In this document: piece by piece, positions 40,217 to 55,828 of the stretch
Layout: every line of letters begins with the position of its first letter
Numbering within the stretch: position 1 is the stretch's first letter
From: Saprospirales bacterium
GTDB taxonomy: Bacteria > Bacteroidota > Bacteroidia > Chitinophagales > Saprospiraceae
Direction of reading: 5' to 3'
NCBI GenBank assembly: GCA_007695035.1
Contig: REEO01000056.1
Coordinates: forward strand, 62,001 to 126,000
Length of the DNA stretch: 64,000 bases
Program-made: the position numbers and the translations under genes
The notes under the pieces: model-generated
Databases searched by the model: none
Told to the model about the DNA's origin: nothing
What the model saw: the letters and a program-made list of their open reading frames with translations, nothing else

Positions 40217-42658
40217 TCAAAAAACAGCATCCTGACCACCATTCATGTCAGGCTCCCTTCTTTCCGACCTGTCCTGGTATCCCCTGAAACGCCAGGTAAA
40301 TGATAGATTCAATACCCGGCTCTCCCTCTCAAAATAACGACGCTGGTCGAAATTAGCACTTTGTGTATTGAGCGTGAAATTTTGTGTTTGAAAAACATCC
40401 GATAAACTCAGACTTACAGTGGCATTGCGATTGAGGACCTCTCTCCTCATTCCAATGTTGACTGAAAACCTGGAGTCAATGGACCCCTGTGGAAGTACAA
40501 TGGGTCCGCGGTAGTTGGCGATCAACTGGAAAGAAAACCAGTCCCGCACTCTGGTGTTTCCCATCAAGTTAAGGGTCCAGGAGAATCTCGAATTGGAGTA
40601 ACTACCCTCACTATCCTCCCCGGTTATCCTGCTGTAAAATGCACTACTTGTCAGCGAAATATCGGTATTTGAATCGAGGAATAACTGCTTGACGACCTCC
40701 ATACCCGAGTTCCTGCGGGTATCTGCATTGGTCCAGGTTACCACCGACGATCTCTCTTGAAAAAGCTCGTAAACCCGGGTAAAAGTATTTTCTGCATGGC
40801 GGTGAAAAACTGAAGCGGTCAGGAAAAAATCATCCCACATTTTATCAAAGGAAAGTTCGTAATTATCGGTGTACTGCGGTTGCAAATAGGGGTTTCCCAA
40901 TCTCAGATTGAGCAAGTCCTGCGCATTGAGAAATGGCATCAACCTCCACATATTTGGTCTGCTAATTCTACGGCTGTAACTTGCCTGTAAAATGGTGTTT
41001 TCGGCCAGCTCATAAGTGAGAAAAAAGGAGGGAAACAAATCGAAGTAATTGTTAACATGTACAGAATCAATCCGTGGTTGAAAAGACTCTGTGGTGGTGT
41101 ATTCTGCCCTAAGTCCTGCCTGATAACCCCAGGGTCCGGTATTACCACTCAGGATGAGATACCCTGCGTGAACGTCCTCATCAAAGTAAAACTGATTGGT
41201 GAGAAGGTCGTTACGCTTAAATTCTTCATTGTCAAAATCGAAATCCTCGAAAATTTGCTCTCTGAACTCGCTGGATAAAGTAGATTTCCAACCTGCCTCA
41301 AAATTAAAGTCCCACAAGGGCATGGAAAAGTCTGCTTGTAAAAGTGTCAAATCTCTTTCGACGGGACGCTCATAGGTCTGCAGTTCACGCTTGGAGGGGA
41401 CCGGTAAGTCGCTTTCATCCCTGAATTCCTGGTCAAAATACTCTATGCGGTCCTGATCGGAATAGGAATGCGTGGCCATCAAACTAAGTTCGTAACCCTC
41501 TCTTCCTAAGTTGGTTTGAAAAGCCAGACCGCCTTCCAAACTGATTCTGGACTGATCTTCTTCTAAAAAGCGGATGTAGGCACTGTCCTGTTACTCAGAT
41601 GCGTCCAAACTCCTAATCTGGTAAAGTCGCTCTCTATCTCTTGATCGATGGTTTATGGAGGAAAAGAAGGTTAGACTGGTGTTCTCATTGAATTGATACT
41701 CAATGGCGGGTCTAACAAGATGTGTGCGGTCCCAATTTTCCGTGTCGTATTCCTGGTCTAGTATGGGAGATACATCCCCTCTGAAACTTTCTCGCCAACT
41801 TTCACTATACTCCCATCGCTCGCGGTACTGAAAATTGTAACCAAGGCTAAAGTTCCAACCATTGCTCCTGTAGTTGAGATTGAGACCAGTATTGAGTTTA
41901 TTTCCCGTTCCTGCGCCTACATTTATTTGTCCGTTCAGTCCGTAGAGTTCTGATTCATTGAGAATAATGTTGATGATTCCCCCCACACCCTCGGCGTCAA
42001 ATCTGGCTGCAGGATTGGTAATAACTTCCACGCTTTTAATTGCATTAGCCGGGTATTGCTCCAGTATAGATTCCGTGTCGTCCGAAGTTAAATTGGTGGG
42101 TCTTCCATTGATATAAATGAGGAGGTTTGAACTGCCTCTAAGGTTTATTTGGCCCTCTTCATCCACTTGAATGGAAGGAAGGGTTTGCAACAATTGAATG
42201 GCCGTACCTCCGTCGGCTGCAATGGTGTTTTCCACATCGTAAGTTCGTTTGTCTATTTCAGACCGAAACATCAAAGCCGCTGCTTCAACCGATATTTCAG
42301 CAAGGTTTTCAGCCGCTTCTACAAGTTCAATTTCCCCTAAATCCACCCCTTCCGGTGCAGCAGTGACAGTTAAATAAAGTGTTTGATAACCCAGATAAGA
42401 TATCCTTAGCAAATAGTCTTCATTGGCAGAAATAGAGAGATCAAATTTTCCCTCCAAATCTGTGGTAACACCTGTTATTAAGCTGCTGTCCGTTTTTAGA
42501 AGTACGGCAACGCTGCTAAAATCGACCGGTTCACCGGAATTTACATCGATTACCTGTCCGGTAATCTCACTTGCACTTTGGGAAAAAAGAGCCTGACCTA
42601 TTCCGAGGATGGAAATCAGAAATAGTAATCGAGGAAACTGAAGTAATCGTCCAATCAT
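40217..42658 (-). pseudogene. TonB-dependent receptor (outer membrane beta-barrel family) with one in-frame stop
   Basis: One continuous reading frame of 814 codons apart from a single TAA at 41591-41593 (codon 356). N-terminal part (42658-41594): signal peptide, carboxypeptidase-regulatory-like domain (ITGQVIDVNSGEPVDFSSVA), then plug (RGSSNLLIYINGRPTNLTSD, SVEVITNPAARFDAEGVGGI). After the stop the same frame continues without shift (QDSAYIRFLEEDQSRISLEG) into the barrel, ending RGYQDRSERREPDMNGG. Both halves keep normal codon and protein character. The break may be a recent nonsense mutation, a sequencing error or phase variation. Ligand unknown. Confidence 0.85.
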
Positions 42659-42948
42659 TTTTACTTATTCAATACAATATTCTAAAGTCCTTTAACCACA
42701 GAAACAAGTATTTTATTAAAGAATTGAGTACCCTTTTGTTTATGTATAAAGGTCATTTGTGCCATATTGATGGAGGTTTAACACAATTTAACACTGAGGT
42801 TCGCCTTTTCCACAGGTCTCCAGTAAGTTTACACAGTCCACTTTCAGTGGATTTTTATAATTTAGCATTTTTTCATGCGACGATGCATAATTAATGGAAG
42901 ATTCGGCGCTGAACTGCATGGATTGAAACAAGTAAACGGACCAGATTT
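42659..42948. other. Divergent intergenic region
   Basis: 290 bp between the receptor and the AbgT gene. A hairpin TCCACT (42837-42842) / AGTGGA (42846-42851) followed by five Ts precedes the AbgT gene by about 100 bp and could be an attenuator. A lone TTTTCCACA at 42806-42814 is probably chance. Confidence 0.35.
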
Positions 42949-47137: not shown

Positions 47138-48178
47138 TCAAGGTGTTTTAGCGATGTAGTAATTGTAGAAAACGGACAGCAACAAAAGTGAAGCAACTGC
47201 CTGATGCATTACTCCCCAAAAAACGGGTATTTGGCCAGTGGACATCAATACAGTTACTATTCCGATGACAAGCTGAACAAAGAGAAGTCCGCCAAAGGTA
47301 AACAAGGCGTTTTTCTCCAGCGAATTTTGAGCAGTTTTCCACTGTCGCCAAATCATTATAGCGCCAAGCACCAACAGCAGGTAGGCTACCATGCGATGTA
47401 AAAACTGAACAAGCGCAGTCATGAATAAGCTCCTGTCATAATAGGTGAAATTTTCAGCATTCCAATTTTGACCATCCAGAATAACGCCTGGTATAAACTC
47501 ACCTTGAAGATCGGGCCAGGTAGGGTAAAAGAGTGCAGCCCGGGTACCGGACATCATACCTCCTAGAAATATTTGTATGATCAATATCAATAAAAATATT
47601 AGCCAGGGTTTGCGAGGTAAATTGCTACCACTCCATTTTGTACCATTTACTTTGATGGCCACCCAAAATAAGTAGGTGAATAGCGTTAGACCCAACATGA
47701 GGTGTATGGAGAGCTTGTAGGCGTTGACCCAGGGCCTGTCAATAAGCCCGCTGGCAACCATAATCCAGCCTATGGATGCTACCACTGCAGCCATTCCCAC
47801 CGCACCAAGTAATTTTAGATTGAGTGAGCGGCCTATTTTTCCCTTGATCACAAAGAATATGTAGGGAATTAAGAAGACAAAAAAGAGCAGTCGAGCCCAC
47901 AACCTGTGCACATACTCCCAAAAGTATATGAACTTGAACTCACTCATACTCATTCCGAGGTTAATCTGCTCGTACTGAGGTGTCTGACGGTACAATTCAA
48001 ATGCCTCTTCCCATTGCTGCTCACTGAGTGGTGGAAGAGTACCGGTGACAATTTCCCATCGCGTAATGGACAATCCACTACCGGTTAGCCTTGTAATTCC
48101 CCCAATTACAATCTGGAAAAATACCATTATAACACCTGCCCAAATCCAAATCCGCACCGCGCGGGAATATTTACTCAT
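47138..48178 (-). CDS. ctaA: Heme A synthase (COX15/CtaA family)
   Basis: 346 residues, eight membrane helices. Family signatures: GGITRLTGSGLSITRWEIVT, FWEYVHRLWARLLF with the heme-binding His, VNAYKLSIHLMLGLTLFTYL, FLHRMVAYLLLVLGAIM, and the last His in WGVMHQAVASLLLLS. The enzyme oxidises heme O to heme A for cytochrome c oxidase, at the inner membrane. The COX15 (type 2) form with internal repeat is indicated by the longer loops. It is the last gene before the AT-rich 48.2-48.7 kb region. Confidence 0.94.
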   Translation of the reverse strand: MSKYSRAVRIWIWAGVIMVFFQIVIGGITRLTGSGLSITRWEIVTGTLPPLSEQQWEEAFELYRQTPQYEQINLGMSMSEFKFIYFWEYVHRLWARLLFFVFLIPYIFFVIKGKIGRSLNLKLLGAVGMAAVVASIGWIMVASGLIDRPWVNAYKLSIHLMLGLTLFTYLFWVAIKVNGTKWSGSNLPRKPWLIFLLILIIQIFLGGMMSGTRAALFYPTWPDLQGEFIPGVILDGQNWNAENFTYYDRSLFMTALVQFLHRMVAYLLLVLGAIMIWRQWKTAQNSLEKNALFTFGGLLFVQLVIGIVTVLMSTGQIPVFWGVMHQAVASLLLLSVFYNYYIAKTP

Positions 48179-48723
48179 AATGCGCTAAAGTTTTCACCCA
48201 CAAAAAACATTATCCACCAGATTACAATCCATTCATACCAGTTAGGACTCCTATAAGCCTTTTTTGGATCCACAAATTTATGCTTTTCCACAATCACCCA
48301 TTTTTGATAATAGTAATTTTTTCTTCTGTAAATAAAATAAACCGTTATTATTAGTTGTGTGGATATGTGACTAACTTTTTTTAGAATGATTAGGATTAAT
48401 CGCCTTTATCATTTTTAAGCCATTTTTCCACATAACATTCTCCTGTAATGCGTGGATTTTAGTTGGTTTTACACATGGTGTGGAAAAATAGGTGTTGGAT
48501 AAGTTTTTTAATGTGCTTAAGTGAATAAGATTCCTCTTTGGTTGATCTAATCCGCAAATGTATTGATAAATTTTTTATATAAATAAAATAGTTATATGTT
48601 CTGCCCGCCTTTCAGAGTTTTCCACATATTCTTTTATGCTTTTCCACCTTTAGTTTTCTATGGGCTGGTTATGGCTAAATAGTTTGTCATATTGCTGATA
48701 TTATTAACTTAGCCAAAAAAATT
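48179..48723. other. Candidate replication origin (oriC): AT-rich region with DnaA-box cluster
   Basis: 545 bp without a gene. Four copies of TTTTCCACA (48284-48292, 48424-48432, 48618-48626 plus strand; 48479-48487 minus strand) fit the DnaA box form TTWTNCACA. Three further sites are one base from TTATCCACA: 48210-48218 (TTATCCACC), 48358-48366 (minus, ATATCCACA) and one base from the TTTTCCACA form: 48640-48648 (TTTTCCACC). Very AT-rich tracts at 48301-48350 and 48570-48600 could be the unwinding element. A run of eight co-oriented genes starts right after it, and parS-like sites lie 6-7 kb away. The base change in coding strand composition after 48.7 kb (more G and T) also fits. Confidence 0.62.
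48683..48712 (+). promoter_or_regulatory. Promoter for the gene run starting with dtd
   Basis: TTTG at 48683-48686, an 18-nt spacer and TAACTTAG at 48705-48712 (one mismatch from TAnnTTTG). The GTG of dtd is 11 nt further. A very similar TAACTTAG lies at 49634-49641 ahead of the phosphatase gene. Confidence 0.5.
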
Positions 48724-49188
48724 GTGAGAGCTGTTATTCAGAGAGCTGAAGATGTGCGGGTTAAAGTTTTGAAAGAGGGTGTCTTAGAAAGCAGGGGTGA
48801 ATTCTCAGCTGGTTTGGTTGTTCTTGTTGGGTTTGAAAAGGAAGATGGTGAAGAGGATATGGACTATCTCTTGCGGAAAATTCCCGCTATGCGTATATTT
48901 AACGATGAAGATGGCAAAATGAACCTTTCTGTTGAGGATATCAGGGGAGGTATAGCAGTGGTTAGCCAGTTTACCCTTTATGCTTGCACCAAAAAGGGGA
49001 ACAGGCCTTCTTTTATTCGAGCCTGTGAACCAAATAAAGCCAAGGCATTGTACGATGAATTTGTCATGCTTATTAGAACGAAGGTAGATAAAGTGGTTAC
49101 CGGTGAATTTGGTGCTTATATGAAGATTGATTTTGTGAATGAAGGTCCGGTAACGATTATTATTGACAGTAAAAACAGGGAATTTTGA
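48724..49188 (+). CDS. dtd: D-aminoacyl-tRNA deacylase
   Basis: 154 residues starting at GTG 48724 with MRAVIQRAEDVRV, the standard dtd opening, which decides the start. Catalytic motifs SQFTLYACTKKGNRPSF and the terminal NEGPVTIIIDS (family NxGPVT) are intact. The enzyme removes D-amino acids and Gly wrongly attached to tRNA. It overlaps the next gene (its stop TGA shares bases with a TTG start). First gene downstream of the candidate origin. Confidence 0.95.
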   Translation: MRAVIQRAEDVRVKVLKEGVLESRGEFSAGLVVLVGFEKEDGEEDMDYLLRKIPAMRIFNDEDGKMNLSVEDIRGGIAVVSQFTLYACTKKGNRPSFIRACEPNKAKALYDEFVMLIRTKVDKVVTGEFGAYMKIDFVNEGPVTIIIDSKNREF

Positions 49189-53453: not shown

Positions 53454-54193
53454 TTGCGAAGATTTTAATTGAACTTGGTGGACATTCTTTTGAATCCGAT
53501 TTAAATCAACCTATTGAAATTGGCATAACCCTTAAAGACGGAAAAGGCAACCCTAATTGCTTTTTCGCTCCCTTCCCTGCCTTCGAACCCTTTCAAGCAG
53601 GAGAATTTGTTGGTAGTATAGAGGAAGGTAGTCCGGTTAACTTTTATGATGTTAAGTTTAATCCGCACGGTAACGGGACACATACTGAATGCTCTGGGCA
53701 TGTTTTTAATAATGGGCTTGTGATGGCTGGATTGTTAGATATTTATTTTTTTCCAGCTGTATTGGTAAGTATTAGTCCTTCCCCTGAAGGTATTGTATCG
53801 AAAAAGGATTTCGGAGAAATTCCGGAATGGGTTGAGGCTGTCATTATTAGGACACTACCTAATGGTAAGGATAAGCTAGATAAGTTTTACTCCGGTAAAG
53901 ATCCGCTGTATTTGGAGGCCGCCTTGTTGGATTATTTTGCAAAGAAAGGGGTTAAACATTTATTGGTTGATCTTCCCTCTGTTGATCCAGAAAATGATGG
54001 CGGTTTGCTAGCTGGTCACAAAGCTTTTTGGAATTCTCTGCATGGCGACAGAACAAGATGTACCATTACCGAGTTGGTGTATGTAGGTAATGAGGTTGAA
54101 GATGGATTCTATGTGGTTAACTTGCAGTTTCCCTCTATGGCACTGGATGCTGTTCCATCCAATCCCATTCTATACAAGCTCAATAAGCTTTGA
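53450..54193 (+). CDS. Cyclase family protein (kynurenine formamidase-like)
   Basis: 247 residues. The metal-binding motif HGNGTHTECSGH (family HxGTHxD-like; here HxNGTHxE) is at about 70-81, and later AVIIRTLPNGKDKL and KHLLVDLPSVDPENDGG fit the cyclase fold. Related enzymes hydrolyse N-formylkynurenine or similar amides with a divalent metal. The substrate is unknown. Start overlaps nadK by 4 bp; the following membrane protein gene overlaps its stop. Confidence 0.85.
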   Translation: MIAKILIELGGHSFESDLNQPIEIGITLKDGKGNPNCFFAPFPAFEPFQAGEFVGSIEEGSPVNFYDVKFNPHGNGTHTECSGHVFNNGLVMAGLLDIYFFPAVLVSISPSPEGIVSKKDFGEIPEWVEAVIIRTLPNGKDKLDKFYSGKDPLYLEAALLDYFAKKGVKHLLVDLPSVDPENDGGLLAGHKAFWNSLHGDRTRCTITELVYVGNEVEDGFYVVNLQFPSMALDAVPSNPILYKLNKL

Positions 54194-54852
54194 TGGTTAT
54201 GAACAAAGGAGGTAGGGATTATTTGATAAAACGATTTCGTGAAGAGGGGCTTGAGTCCTACCGTTCCATTGTACGCTTTTTTGAAAGGAATGAAGGTGAG
54301 CTTGGCGAGCTTGAGTTTGAAGACTATTTCAGTGTTCTTTTGGAATATGTGGATGCGCTTTATGAAATTGGGGCCCATTACAAATTTCTCCGGTTTGCCG
54401 ATCAGGTTATTGAAATGAGTATTGAGCGTAATATTGTTTATTTCGAGGGGAAAGATATTTTCGAGTATTTTGTGTATCGTAAAGGTCTTGCGCTATTGAA
54501 TTTGGGGCTGTTAAATAAAAGCGAGGGAATTGCCTTGGAATTGCTTAAGATGGATCCAGATAACCGGGATTACAAAAGATTGCTCTGCAAGATTTATTAC
54601 AGACGCAGAACTGTTGATCGGATTAACATGAGGATGTACGGCGTTGTATTTCTACTTTTCAGTGCTTTTGCCGTATTTTTGGAATTGGCTTTTTTCCCCG
54701 TAATTGGTTTCGAAGTTAGCGGTTTCGACCTCTTGAGACTTGGTTTATTCTCTATCGGTCTCGCCTTAATTGCCGTCACAGAGTTGATTTCCAGTTATTA
54801 CAGTAGAACAGAGATGTTATCCCAGGTAAAAATAATTAAGCAAAAACGGTAA
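54193..54852 (+). CDS. Membrane protein with TPR-like N-terminal region
   Basis: 219 residues from the ATG at 54193, which overlaps the cyclase stop (TGATG). The soluble N-terminal part is helical and TPR-like (LLEYVDALYEIGAHYKFLRF, YRKGLALLNLGLLNKSEGIA). Two C-terminal membrane helices follow (VVFLLFSAFAVFLELAFFPV and LLRLGLFSIGLALIAVTELI). No family recognised. It is the last of the eight co-oriented genes and ends exactly where the first parS-like palindrome begins. Confidence 0.7.
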   Translation: MVMNKGGRDYLIKRFREEGLESYRSIVRFFERNEGELGELEFEDYFSVLLEYVDALYEIGAHYKFLRFADQVIEMSIERNIVYFEGKDIFEYFVYRKGLALLNLGLLNKSEGIALELLKMDPDNRDYKRLLCKIYYRRRTVDRINMRMYGVVFLLFSAFAVFLELAFFPVIGFEVSGFDLLRLGLFSIGLALIAVTELISSYYSRTEMLSQVKIIKQKR

Positions 54853-54869
54853 TGTTCCACGTGGAACAT
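54852..54869. promoter_or_regulatory. parS-like centromere site 1
   Basis: Perfect 18-bp palindrome ATGTTCCACGTGGAACAT. Its core TGTTCCACGTGGAACA is the same as chromosomal parS sites recognised by ParB in Pseudomonas and differs from the B. subtilis consensus only symmetrically. It sits in the 16-bp gap between a plus-strand and a minus-strand gene that both end here. Confidence 0.82.
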
Positions 54870-55735
54870 CAGAGAACTCTGACCCCTTCAATTGCTAAAT
54901 TGGCCATCGTGATTTTATTCACTAATCTATTTGTCTCATTTATTTTTTTTAAGTCCTTTATGAAATCATCTGCCTCTGTAGAGTTTTTAAATATGGTATA
55001 ATTTATAATATTTTCATCGCTGGAACTTGCTAAGTTCTTGCAATCTCGTCCATATGAGATTACATTAAAGGGTGTTTGAACGATAGATCCCGACAGTGCA
55101 AATTTTATTCTGGATATGTCCGCGTATAAGCAGCCGGTTGCTAAGGCAGCCGTCAAAACTCTTGTGTCCGGTCTAAATGCATGTAGATTTTGCGGTGCTG
55201 TAGGCTTTAATGGAATTCTTAATTTTCTAGGGAATAGTACGATCCTGAATCCCTTCGGGAGATTTAGCCTGAATCCGTTTTCTTGAAAAGGAAATTGTGA
55301 TATGCGCATACCTCCCGCAATAGATGTGTAAAAAAGTTGTTTATCCCAATGGTTTAATTTCCATTGCTCGGTAAGCAGCTTTGCTTCTACTTCTTTCTCG
55401 ATTGTATCTGGCCTTGCTATTTTCCACATTCCCTCAAAAAGTGCTGCCAGTATTTCTGGCTCTGATGGGTGGTAATTTGTTTTTACTTCGATGGTATATT
55501 GATCTGTGATATTGAGGTTGTCGAAAATATTTGCTGTTTTCACTTTTAAGCAAGCTAGTGATTTGTCCAACTTCCTGGCATTTTTCCCAATTAATTTGAA
55601 GGATGTTGTATTGTTAGAAGGTGATATCTTCAAATCAGTACCTACTTCTTCGACCGGCAGTGTGATCAATTTATCAAATGGTTTGTCAAGGCCAATTACC
55701 TTTGGACCTACCACTCTTATTCCCGGTTGTTTCAT
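54869..55735 (-). CDS. Degenerate GHMP-kinase-like protein between two parS-like sites
   Basis: 288 residues. The second half resembles homoserine kinase-type GHMP proteins: EVEAKLLTEQWKLNHWDKQL, FYTSIAGGMRISQFPF with the Gly-Gly pair (141-142), then PKGFRIVLFPRKLRIP, VLTAALATGCLYADISRIKF and SGSIVQTPF. The ATP-binding GLGSSAA loop expected near residues 85-105 is replaced by YHPSEPEILAALFEG, so kinase activity is doubtful. Relation is inferred from motif order only. The gene lies between the two parS-like palindromes and converges on the plus-strand run. Confidence 0.5.
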   Translation of the reverse strand: MKQPGIRVVGPKVIGLDKPFDKLITLPVEEVGTDLKISPSNNTTSFKLIGKNARKLDKSLACLKVKTANIFDNLNITDQYTIEVKTNYHPSEPEILAALFEGMWKIARPDTIEKEVEAKLLTEQWKLNHWDKQLFYTSIAGGMRISQFPFQENGFRLNLPKGFRIVLFPRKLRIPLKPTAPQNLHAFRPDTRVLTAALATGCLYADISRIKFALSGSIVQTPFNVISYGRDCKNLASSSDENIINYTIFKNSTEADDFIKDLKKINETNRLVNKITMANLAIEGVRVL

Positions 55736-55800: not shown

Positions 55801-55828
55801 TTAAAATGTTTCACGTGGAACATTTTAA
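55801..55828. promoter_or_regulatory. parS-like centromere site 2
   Basis: 28-bp palindrome with one mismatched pair: arms TTAAAATGTT and AACATTTTAA around TCACGTGG. Core TGTTTCACGTGGAACA differs from parS site 1 at one base. It lies between the GHMP-like gene and the pseudogene. Confidence 0.78.

Follow-up and report, generated by a model that had tools for sequence, protein, structure and literature searches.

The gene-free, AT-rich block at positions 48179-48723 of the window (the 64,000-nucleotide stretch of DNA analyzed in this study, C28:62001-126000 of a draft Saprospirales genome of 3.35 Mb in 107 contigs, 96.6% complete) is very probably the chromosomal oriC of this uncultured bacterium, and would be an origin of the ordinary kind that is not adjacent to dnaA. 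This reading, first proposed in an earlier note, is supported by the location of the only parS matches nearby, by a DnaA-box/DnaA-trio module, by conservation within the genus in which one DnaA box is substituted for another, and by the GC-skew minimum of a family member, G017, which falls at the orthologous position. The block is flanked by the divergent genes ctaA (heme A synthase; 47138-48178, minus strand) and dtd (D-aminoacyl-tRNA deacylase; 48724-49188, plus strand), the closest relatives of this dtd being found in the MAGs L003 (Saprospiraceae) and L004 (Saprospirales) at 81% identity. The GC content of the block is 0.305 compared to 0.431 across the window, and Rfam and tRNA scans across the window found nothing.

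The presence of a dense cluster of DnaA boxes in this block was confirmed. Four exact copies of TTTTCCACA fall within a span of 343 bp and occur on both strands (48284-48292, 48424-48432 and 48618-48626 on the plus strand, 48479-48487 on the minus strand), and near matches, which had likewise been claimed, were noted at four places: TTTTCCACC at 48640-48648, TTTTACACA at 48467-48475 and TTATCCACC at 48210-48218, all on the plus strand, and ATATCCACA at 48358 on the minus strand. The same 9-mer, TTTTCCACA, is reportedly the main DnaA box in an origin study of Cyanothece ATCC 51142, an organism that differs from the Saprospirales genome in phylum and gene context. In the portion of the Cyanothece oriC paper that was available, it occurs nine times (PMC4674748).

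Across the whole genome there are 103 copies of TTTTCCACA compared to 63 of the reversed control, and among the 100 of these 103 copies that were listed there is no second site with more than two in 600 bp. The assertion that four boxes lie far above the base rate was borne out: the number of TTTTCCACA sites expected genome-wide to have three more inside 334 bp is 1.8e-5, and when the block was simulated 20,000 times under a first-order Markov model, four boxes were never reached (mean of 0.016). The 54 genomic copies of TTATCCACA include none in the block and form no group larger than two. With one-mismatch boxes included, which were counted on C28 and four other stretches only, the best 500-bp box weight of the block is 12, and with 100 of the 103 TTTTCCACA copies listed no denser cluster was seen in the genome, the runner-up (on C26) reaching 8. 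The 9-mer at 42806 had been described as lone, which is incorrect, as exact companions occur in the window at 42228 and 55420. Matches with at most one mismatch number 53 in the window compared to 33 expected, an excess that would fit a chance clustering of an AT-rich 9-mer; however, the expected number of such clusters, the outcome of the simulations and the conservation in relatives all count against chance, which is an extremely unlikely explanation given this conservation together with the co-location with parS.

A different explanation is that the boxes serve DnaA titration or regulation (as a cluster of the datA/DARS type, or one controlling ctaA/dtd), with the origin located elsewhere, for example before dnaB on C26. 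The position of the block between divergent genes, whose promoters it may hold, would suit such a role, and the boxes on C26 show that either non-origin groups or a second candidate origin exist. At C26:3227-3273 (L222), two copies of TTATCCACA and one of TTTTCCACA are found within 47 bp at a GC content of 0.31, upstream of a gene identified by its NCBIfam name as the replicative helicase DnaB. However, with a best 500-bp weight of 8 against 12 for the block (one-mismatch boxes counted), the C26 stretch also has no parS and no match at E up to 1 to R2, a sequence model of the module described below; this box group possibly reflects DnaA control of dnaB. As the location of parS, the trio-bearing module, and the skew at the G017 orthologous site and around the G020 match all argue against titration or regulation, we consider this explanation quite improbable and an origin in the block the better reading. 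Two exact boxes each are present on C93 and C52, which were rejected as origins (best 500-bp weight of 5 each compared to 12). An origin adjacent to dnaA was also rejected: dnaA is on C32 and the block on C28, and the 16 kb around dnaA contains no comparable cluster (best weight of 5), which agrees with the earlier argument that the absence of dnaA from the neighborhood does not count against oriC.

The candidate origin contains a module on the minus strand (48325-48374) composed of TTAGTCACATATCCACA, a 3-nt spacer and CTAATAATA, followed by AT-rich DNA. The module includes a tandem pair of boxes that overlap by 1 bp, with a weak DnaA box, TTAGTCACA, as the outer member (48366-48374) and a box with one mismatch, ATATCCACA, as the inner member (48358-48366), and a DnaA-trio-like run, CTA ATA ATA (48346-48354), which corresponds to 3'-NAN-5' when the opposite strand is considered. 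According to the accessible part of PMC8287927, a basal unwinding system (BUS) is recognized by a DnaA box no more than 16 bp from at least three trios of the form 3'-NAN-5', and here ATATCCACA is followed, after the 3-nt spacer, by CTA ATA ATA. Across 25 aligned sequences the middle base of the trios is constant, with T22 and T25 invariant and T28 present in at least 90%, a test that is partly circular given that these sequences were picked with a pattern or model favoring a constant middle base. The conservation of T22, T25 and T28 favors reading the trios as NTN on the box strand over NAN in another register, which also fits when the window is considered alone; the NTN reading draws on the 3'-GAT-5' notation and on what we take to be the layout in B. 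subtilis. A putative DNA unwinding element of 65 bp (48293-48357; GC of 0.215) lies between inward-facing groups of boxes, and the module is probably a DnaA-box/DnaA-trio basal unwinding system, at which strand opening is predicted. In the parts of PMC6669920 and PMC8287927 that could be consulted, the B. subtilis incC/BUS likewise comprises DnaA boxes, a short spacer, at least three trinucleotides with a constant middle base and an AT-rich element, and tandem boxes, a feature shared by the module here, are the commonest BUS arrangement (57%). Unlike incC, the candidate origin is not next to dnaA, its tandem boxes overlap, and in 7 of 30 loci they are faced, at a constant distance, by a second box that has a trio-like run of its own (see below).

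At up to two mismatches, the whole genome contains two parS sites only (none for the reversed control): a perfect palindrome, TGTTCCACGTGGAACA, at 54853-54868, and a second site with one mismatch at 55807-55822, about 6.5 and 7.5 kb from the module, respectively. The block is accompanied by parS in the manner of origin-proximal ParABS systems, with a perfect 16-bp palindrome and a second site 1 kb beyond it, but the sites here are restricted to two, and parB, which shares the contig, lies at a distance of about 81 kb. Among the genus relatives, parS with at most one mismatch is found in 2 of 7, in both cases 6-8 kb from the module, and is absent from the other 5, one of which is 98% complete. 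The perfect parS also constitutes the whole 16-bp gap between two converging ORFs (54190-54852 and 54869-55735) that have no Pfam family match.

The GC skew of the block's own contig was rejected as proof of oriC. Skew is weak in this contig of the draft genome, and the cumulative minimum, which had been predicted to fall at 48-49 kb of the window, is located at C28:99980, which puts it some 10 kb left of the block. The hand count of bases that had suggested a switch in skew holds as a local G excess (+0.15 to +0.29 between 48 and 55 kb), but this excess is gone at fourfold sites after correction for gene strand; with gene strand modelled, the side term for the contig is -0.016 and the origin position performs no better than a median split. 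In G017, a member of the same family, skew is -0.11 to the left and +0.11 to the right of the module, and the cumulative minimum of the 60 kb read (120854) lies within about 160 bp of the module (120694-120742). In G020, which belongs to another family, skew has opposite signs in the samples taken at 1290-1310 kb and at 1370-1390 kb, with the module in between at 1330411; within the 40 kb that were read there, the local minimum falls 15 kb away from the module. The sampled skew minimum of G047 (one contig, 5.08 Mb) is at 2.83-3.06 Mb, a discrepancy of 0.65-0.88 Mb from the module match at 3.71 Mb (L105, C1:3710858), and an inversion or a relocated origin are possible causes of this disagreement. 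A weak skew change was found in G034 (P of 0.08), with the best split about 0.1 Mb from the module; G044 showed no skew change, and in neither G031 nor G057 did the local minimum of the 40 kb read coincide with the module. The weak skew of the contig and the incompleteness of an assembly in 107 contigs, where a gap could hide a box cluster, would be compatible with the block being an ancestral origin that is inactive in this lineage, a newer origin lying in a contig gap. We regard such a loss as very improbable, as the block holds the strongest box cluster seen, the module is intact, boxes are common to two genus relatives, and both parS are in the window; an active oriC in the block is preferred.

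A search with positions 48100-48800 produced a match in 6 of the 8 genomes of the genus (own genome counted) and none in the same-genus G062 and G066. The block aligns with G060 and G061, where most boxes are kept and some are swapped for other box variants. The exact box at 48424 is kept in both relatives, while TTTTACACA at 48467 corresponds to TTATTCACA, TTTTCCACC at 48640 to TTATCCACC, and the minus-strand TTTTCCACA at 48479 to a one-mismatch box, TAATCCACA; the TTTTCCACA at 48618 is TTATCCACC in G061, and the near match at 48210, absent from both, is not conserved. In G063, G064 and G065 the match corresponds to the start of ctaA, and the adjoining box cluster contains 4, 3 and 1 exact boxes, respectively. 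Spacings from the first box in G063/G064 are about 140, 182, 331 and 352 bp, compared to 140, 183, 334 and 356 bp in the window, and within the genus TTATCCACA may occupy positions that hold TTTTCCACA here. In the four other genomes of the family, no dense cluster of TTTTCCACA-type boxes was seen around either the module or parS, the best weight being 4 in each.

Every one of the 10 loci read in the genus and family (the window itself, five genus relatives, and the family members G057, G031, G017 and G044) carries the module 5' of ctaA, making ctaA a flank common to every family genome read. In G057, G031, G017 and G044 the module was located within 40-kb stretches chosen around parS; in these four genomes, its closeness to parS therefore carries no independent weight, whereas the ctaA flank does. 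The other neighbor, dtd, was rejected as conserved across the order: in the 30 loci fetched (own included) from 55 genomes with a dtd match, none of the 29 non-own loci has more than one exact TTWTCCACA, and ctaA is the constant flank of the family. Bacteroidetes bacterium HLUCCA01 has 3 exact and 8 near copies of TTWTCCACA in 600 bp around the start of dtd (L020:5625-6001), with a purM-like gene, named by eye, in place of ctaA; this box cluster precedes dtd, but the locus was rejected as a carrier of the module, given that the trio run does not fit. Overall, the module is conserved more widely than either the gene neighborhood or the dense box array.

The distribution of the module was followed with two sequence models, R1 and R2, each scored on no more than 100 (R1) or 60 (R2) candidates per genome under stricter filters, by which weak true matches may be lost. 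R1 was built from 10 module sequences of the genus and family and searched against 60 genomes of the order; in the own genome, whose sequence is part of the model, the best match has an E-value of 1.3e-9, compared to 0.12 for the next. Among the 33 genomes outside the family that contain parS at no more than one mismatch, the top R1 match is within 20 kb of parS in 12 (G007, G009, G015, G020, G021, G024, G030, G034, G035, G039, G040 and G053), compared to a chance expectation of 0.4-1.7 under assumed rates; the corresponding P is 4e-15 to 3e-8 when the chance for each genome is assumed to be 0.0126 to 0.05. The places in G020, G024 and G034 were known before the R1 test, and the near-parS match of G030 resembles a terminator hairpin. 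Top matches with E below 0.005 are near parS in 6 of 7 cases within the 33 genomes. In the remaining 21 of 33, the top match is not near parS (G003, whose top match was unlisted, is scored as a miss, and the match in G029 is 27 kb away). R2, built from 25 sequences and scored on 99 genomes of the phylum, gave E below 1e-4 in all 7 genomes of the order (6 in the alignment, with G152 new), in 2 (G103 and G137) of the 17 further genomes from the class, and in none of the 75 genomes outside the class, and the module was rejected as a phylum-wide mark. Alignment A4 omits, by eye, L109-L112, L114-L118, L120 and L121 (coding or without box context), as well as top matches without a fetched locus (e.g., G015, G029 and G039) and G063, which is in A3. 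At L210 (G137) and L213 (G111), in another family of the class, tandem boxes close to the consensus likewise precede trio-like repeats. At L097 (G041:C45:100064), six exact boxes are found within 400 bp of the module in a genome with no parS at up to one mismatch; this locus is likely the origin of G041.

It is conceivable, though on balance doubtful, that the origin consists of two unwinding modules placed head to head across a single AT-rich element of 65 bp. The exact plus-strand box at 48284 faces the unwinding element, its inner edge 65 bp from that of the module (GC of 21.5% between them), and its distance to the opposed doublet is equal in 7 genomes. In 375 bp scanned at each of 30 loci, all 7 exact forward boxes beyond the module begin 89-91 bp from its outer end, in five genus members, G041 (f12) and G020 (f20). 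When one mismatch is allowed, 14 of 21 forward boxes on the opposed side are located at -91 to -79, in 13 loci, and the other 17 of the 30 loci have no such box at these positions. The putative second module would include a trio-like run, TTG ATA ATA GTA ATT TTT (48304-48321, plus strand), beginning 11 nt after the box at 48284. At least three NTN follow the opposed box at a spacer of 11 in 6 loci and of 12 in 1 locus; as the DNA is T-rich, support for an opposed trio-like run is weak. R2, which represents the minus-strand side only, found a sole other match in 115 kb, at the facing positions 48286-48331 on the plus strand (E of 0.29). In 28 further loci, with E-values of up to 3 allowed, it gave 6 secondary matches; those in G061 and G065 face the module, and as the other 4 do not, R2 lends the opposed half weak support. 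A similar opposed doublet is present in G137, from another family of the class. In a limited search of the open literature, including the accessible parts of PMC13220808, PMC10201434 and PMC10225481, neither opposed modules nor a Saprospira origin was found in print. The second helicase-loading step is called unclear in the part of PMC10201434 that was available, where DnaD is proposed for this step in B. subtilis.

Judged from sequence alone, DnaA would bind the box array, load from the minus-strand tandem boxes (48358-48374) onto the trinucleotide repeats (48346-48354) and, by analogy with the published B. subtilis-type BUS, open the 65-bp AT-rich stretch (48293-48357). Replication would then exit bidirectionally, and ParB on the two nearby parS may help segregate the new origins. 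If the head-to-head reading is true, DnaA could load one helicase on each strand by the same DNA-encoded route, which would be a DNA-encoded answer to second-helicase loading as opposed to the DnaD proposed for B. subtilis in the consulted part of PMC10201434. The candidate oriC would locate the origin of a Saprospirales genome in which the position of dnaA is of no help, and it provides a short sequence model of the putative unwinding core that could be tried on draft genomes of the order.
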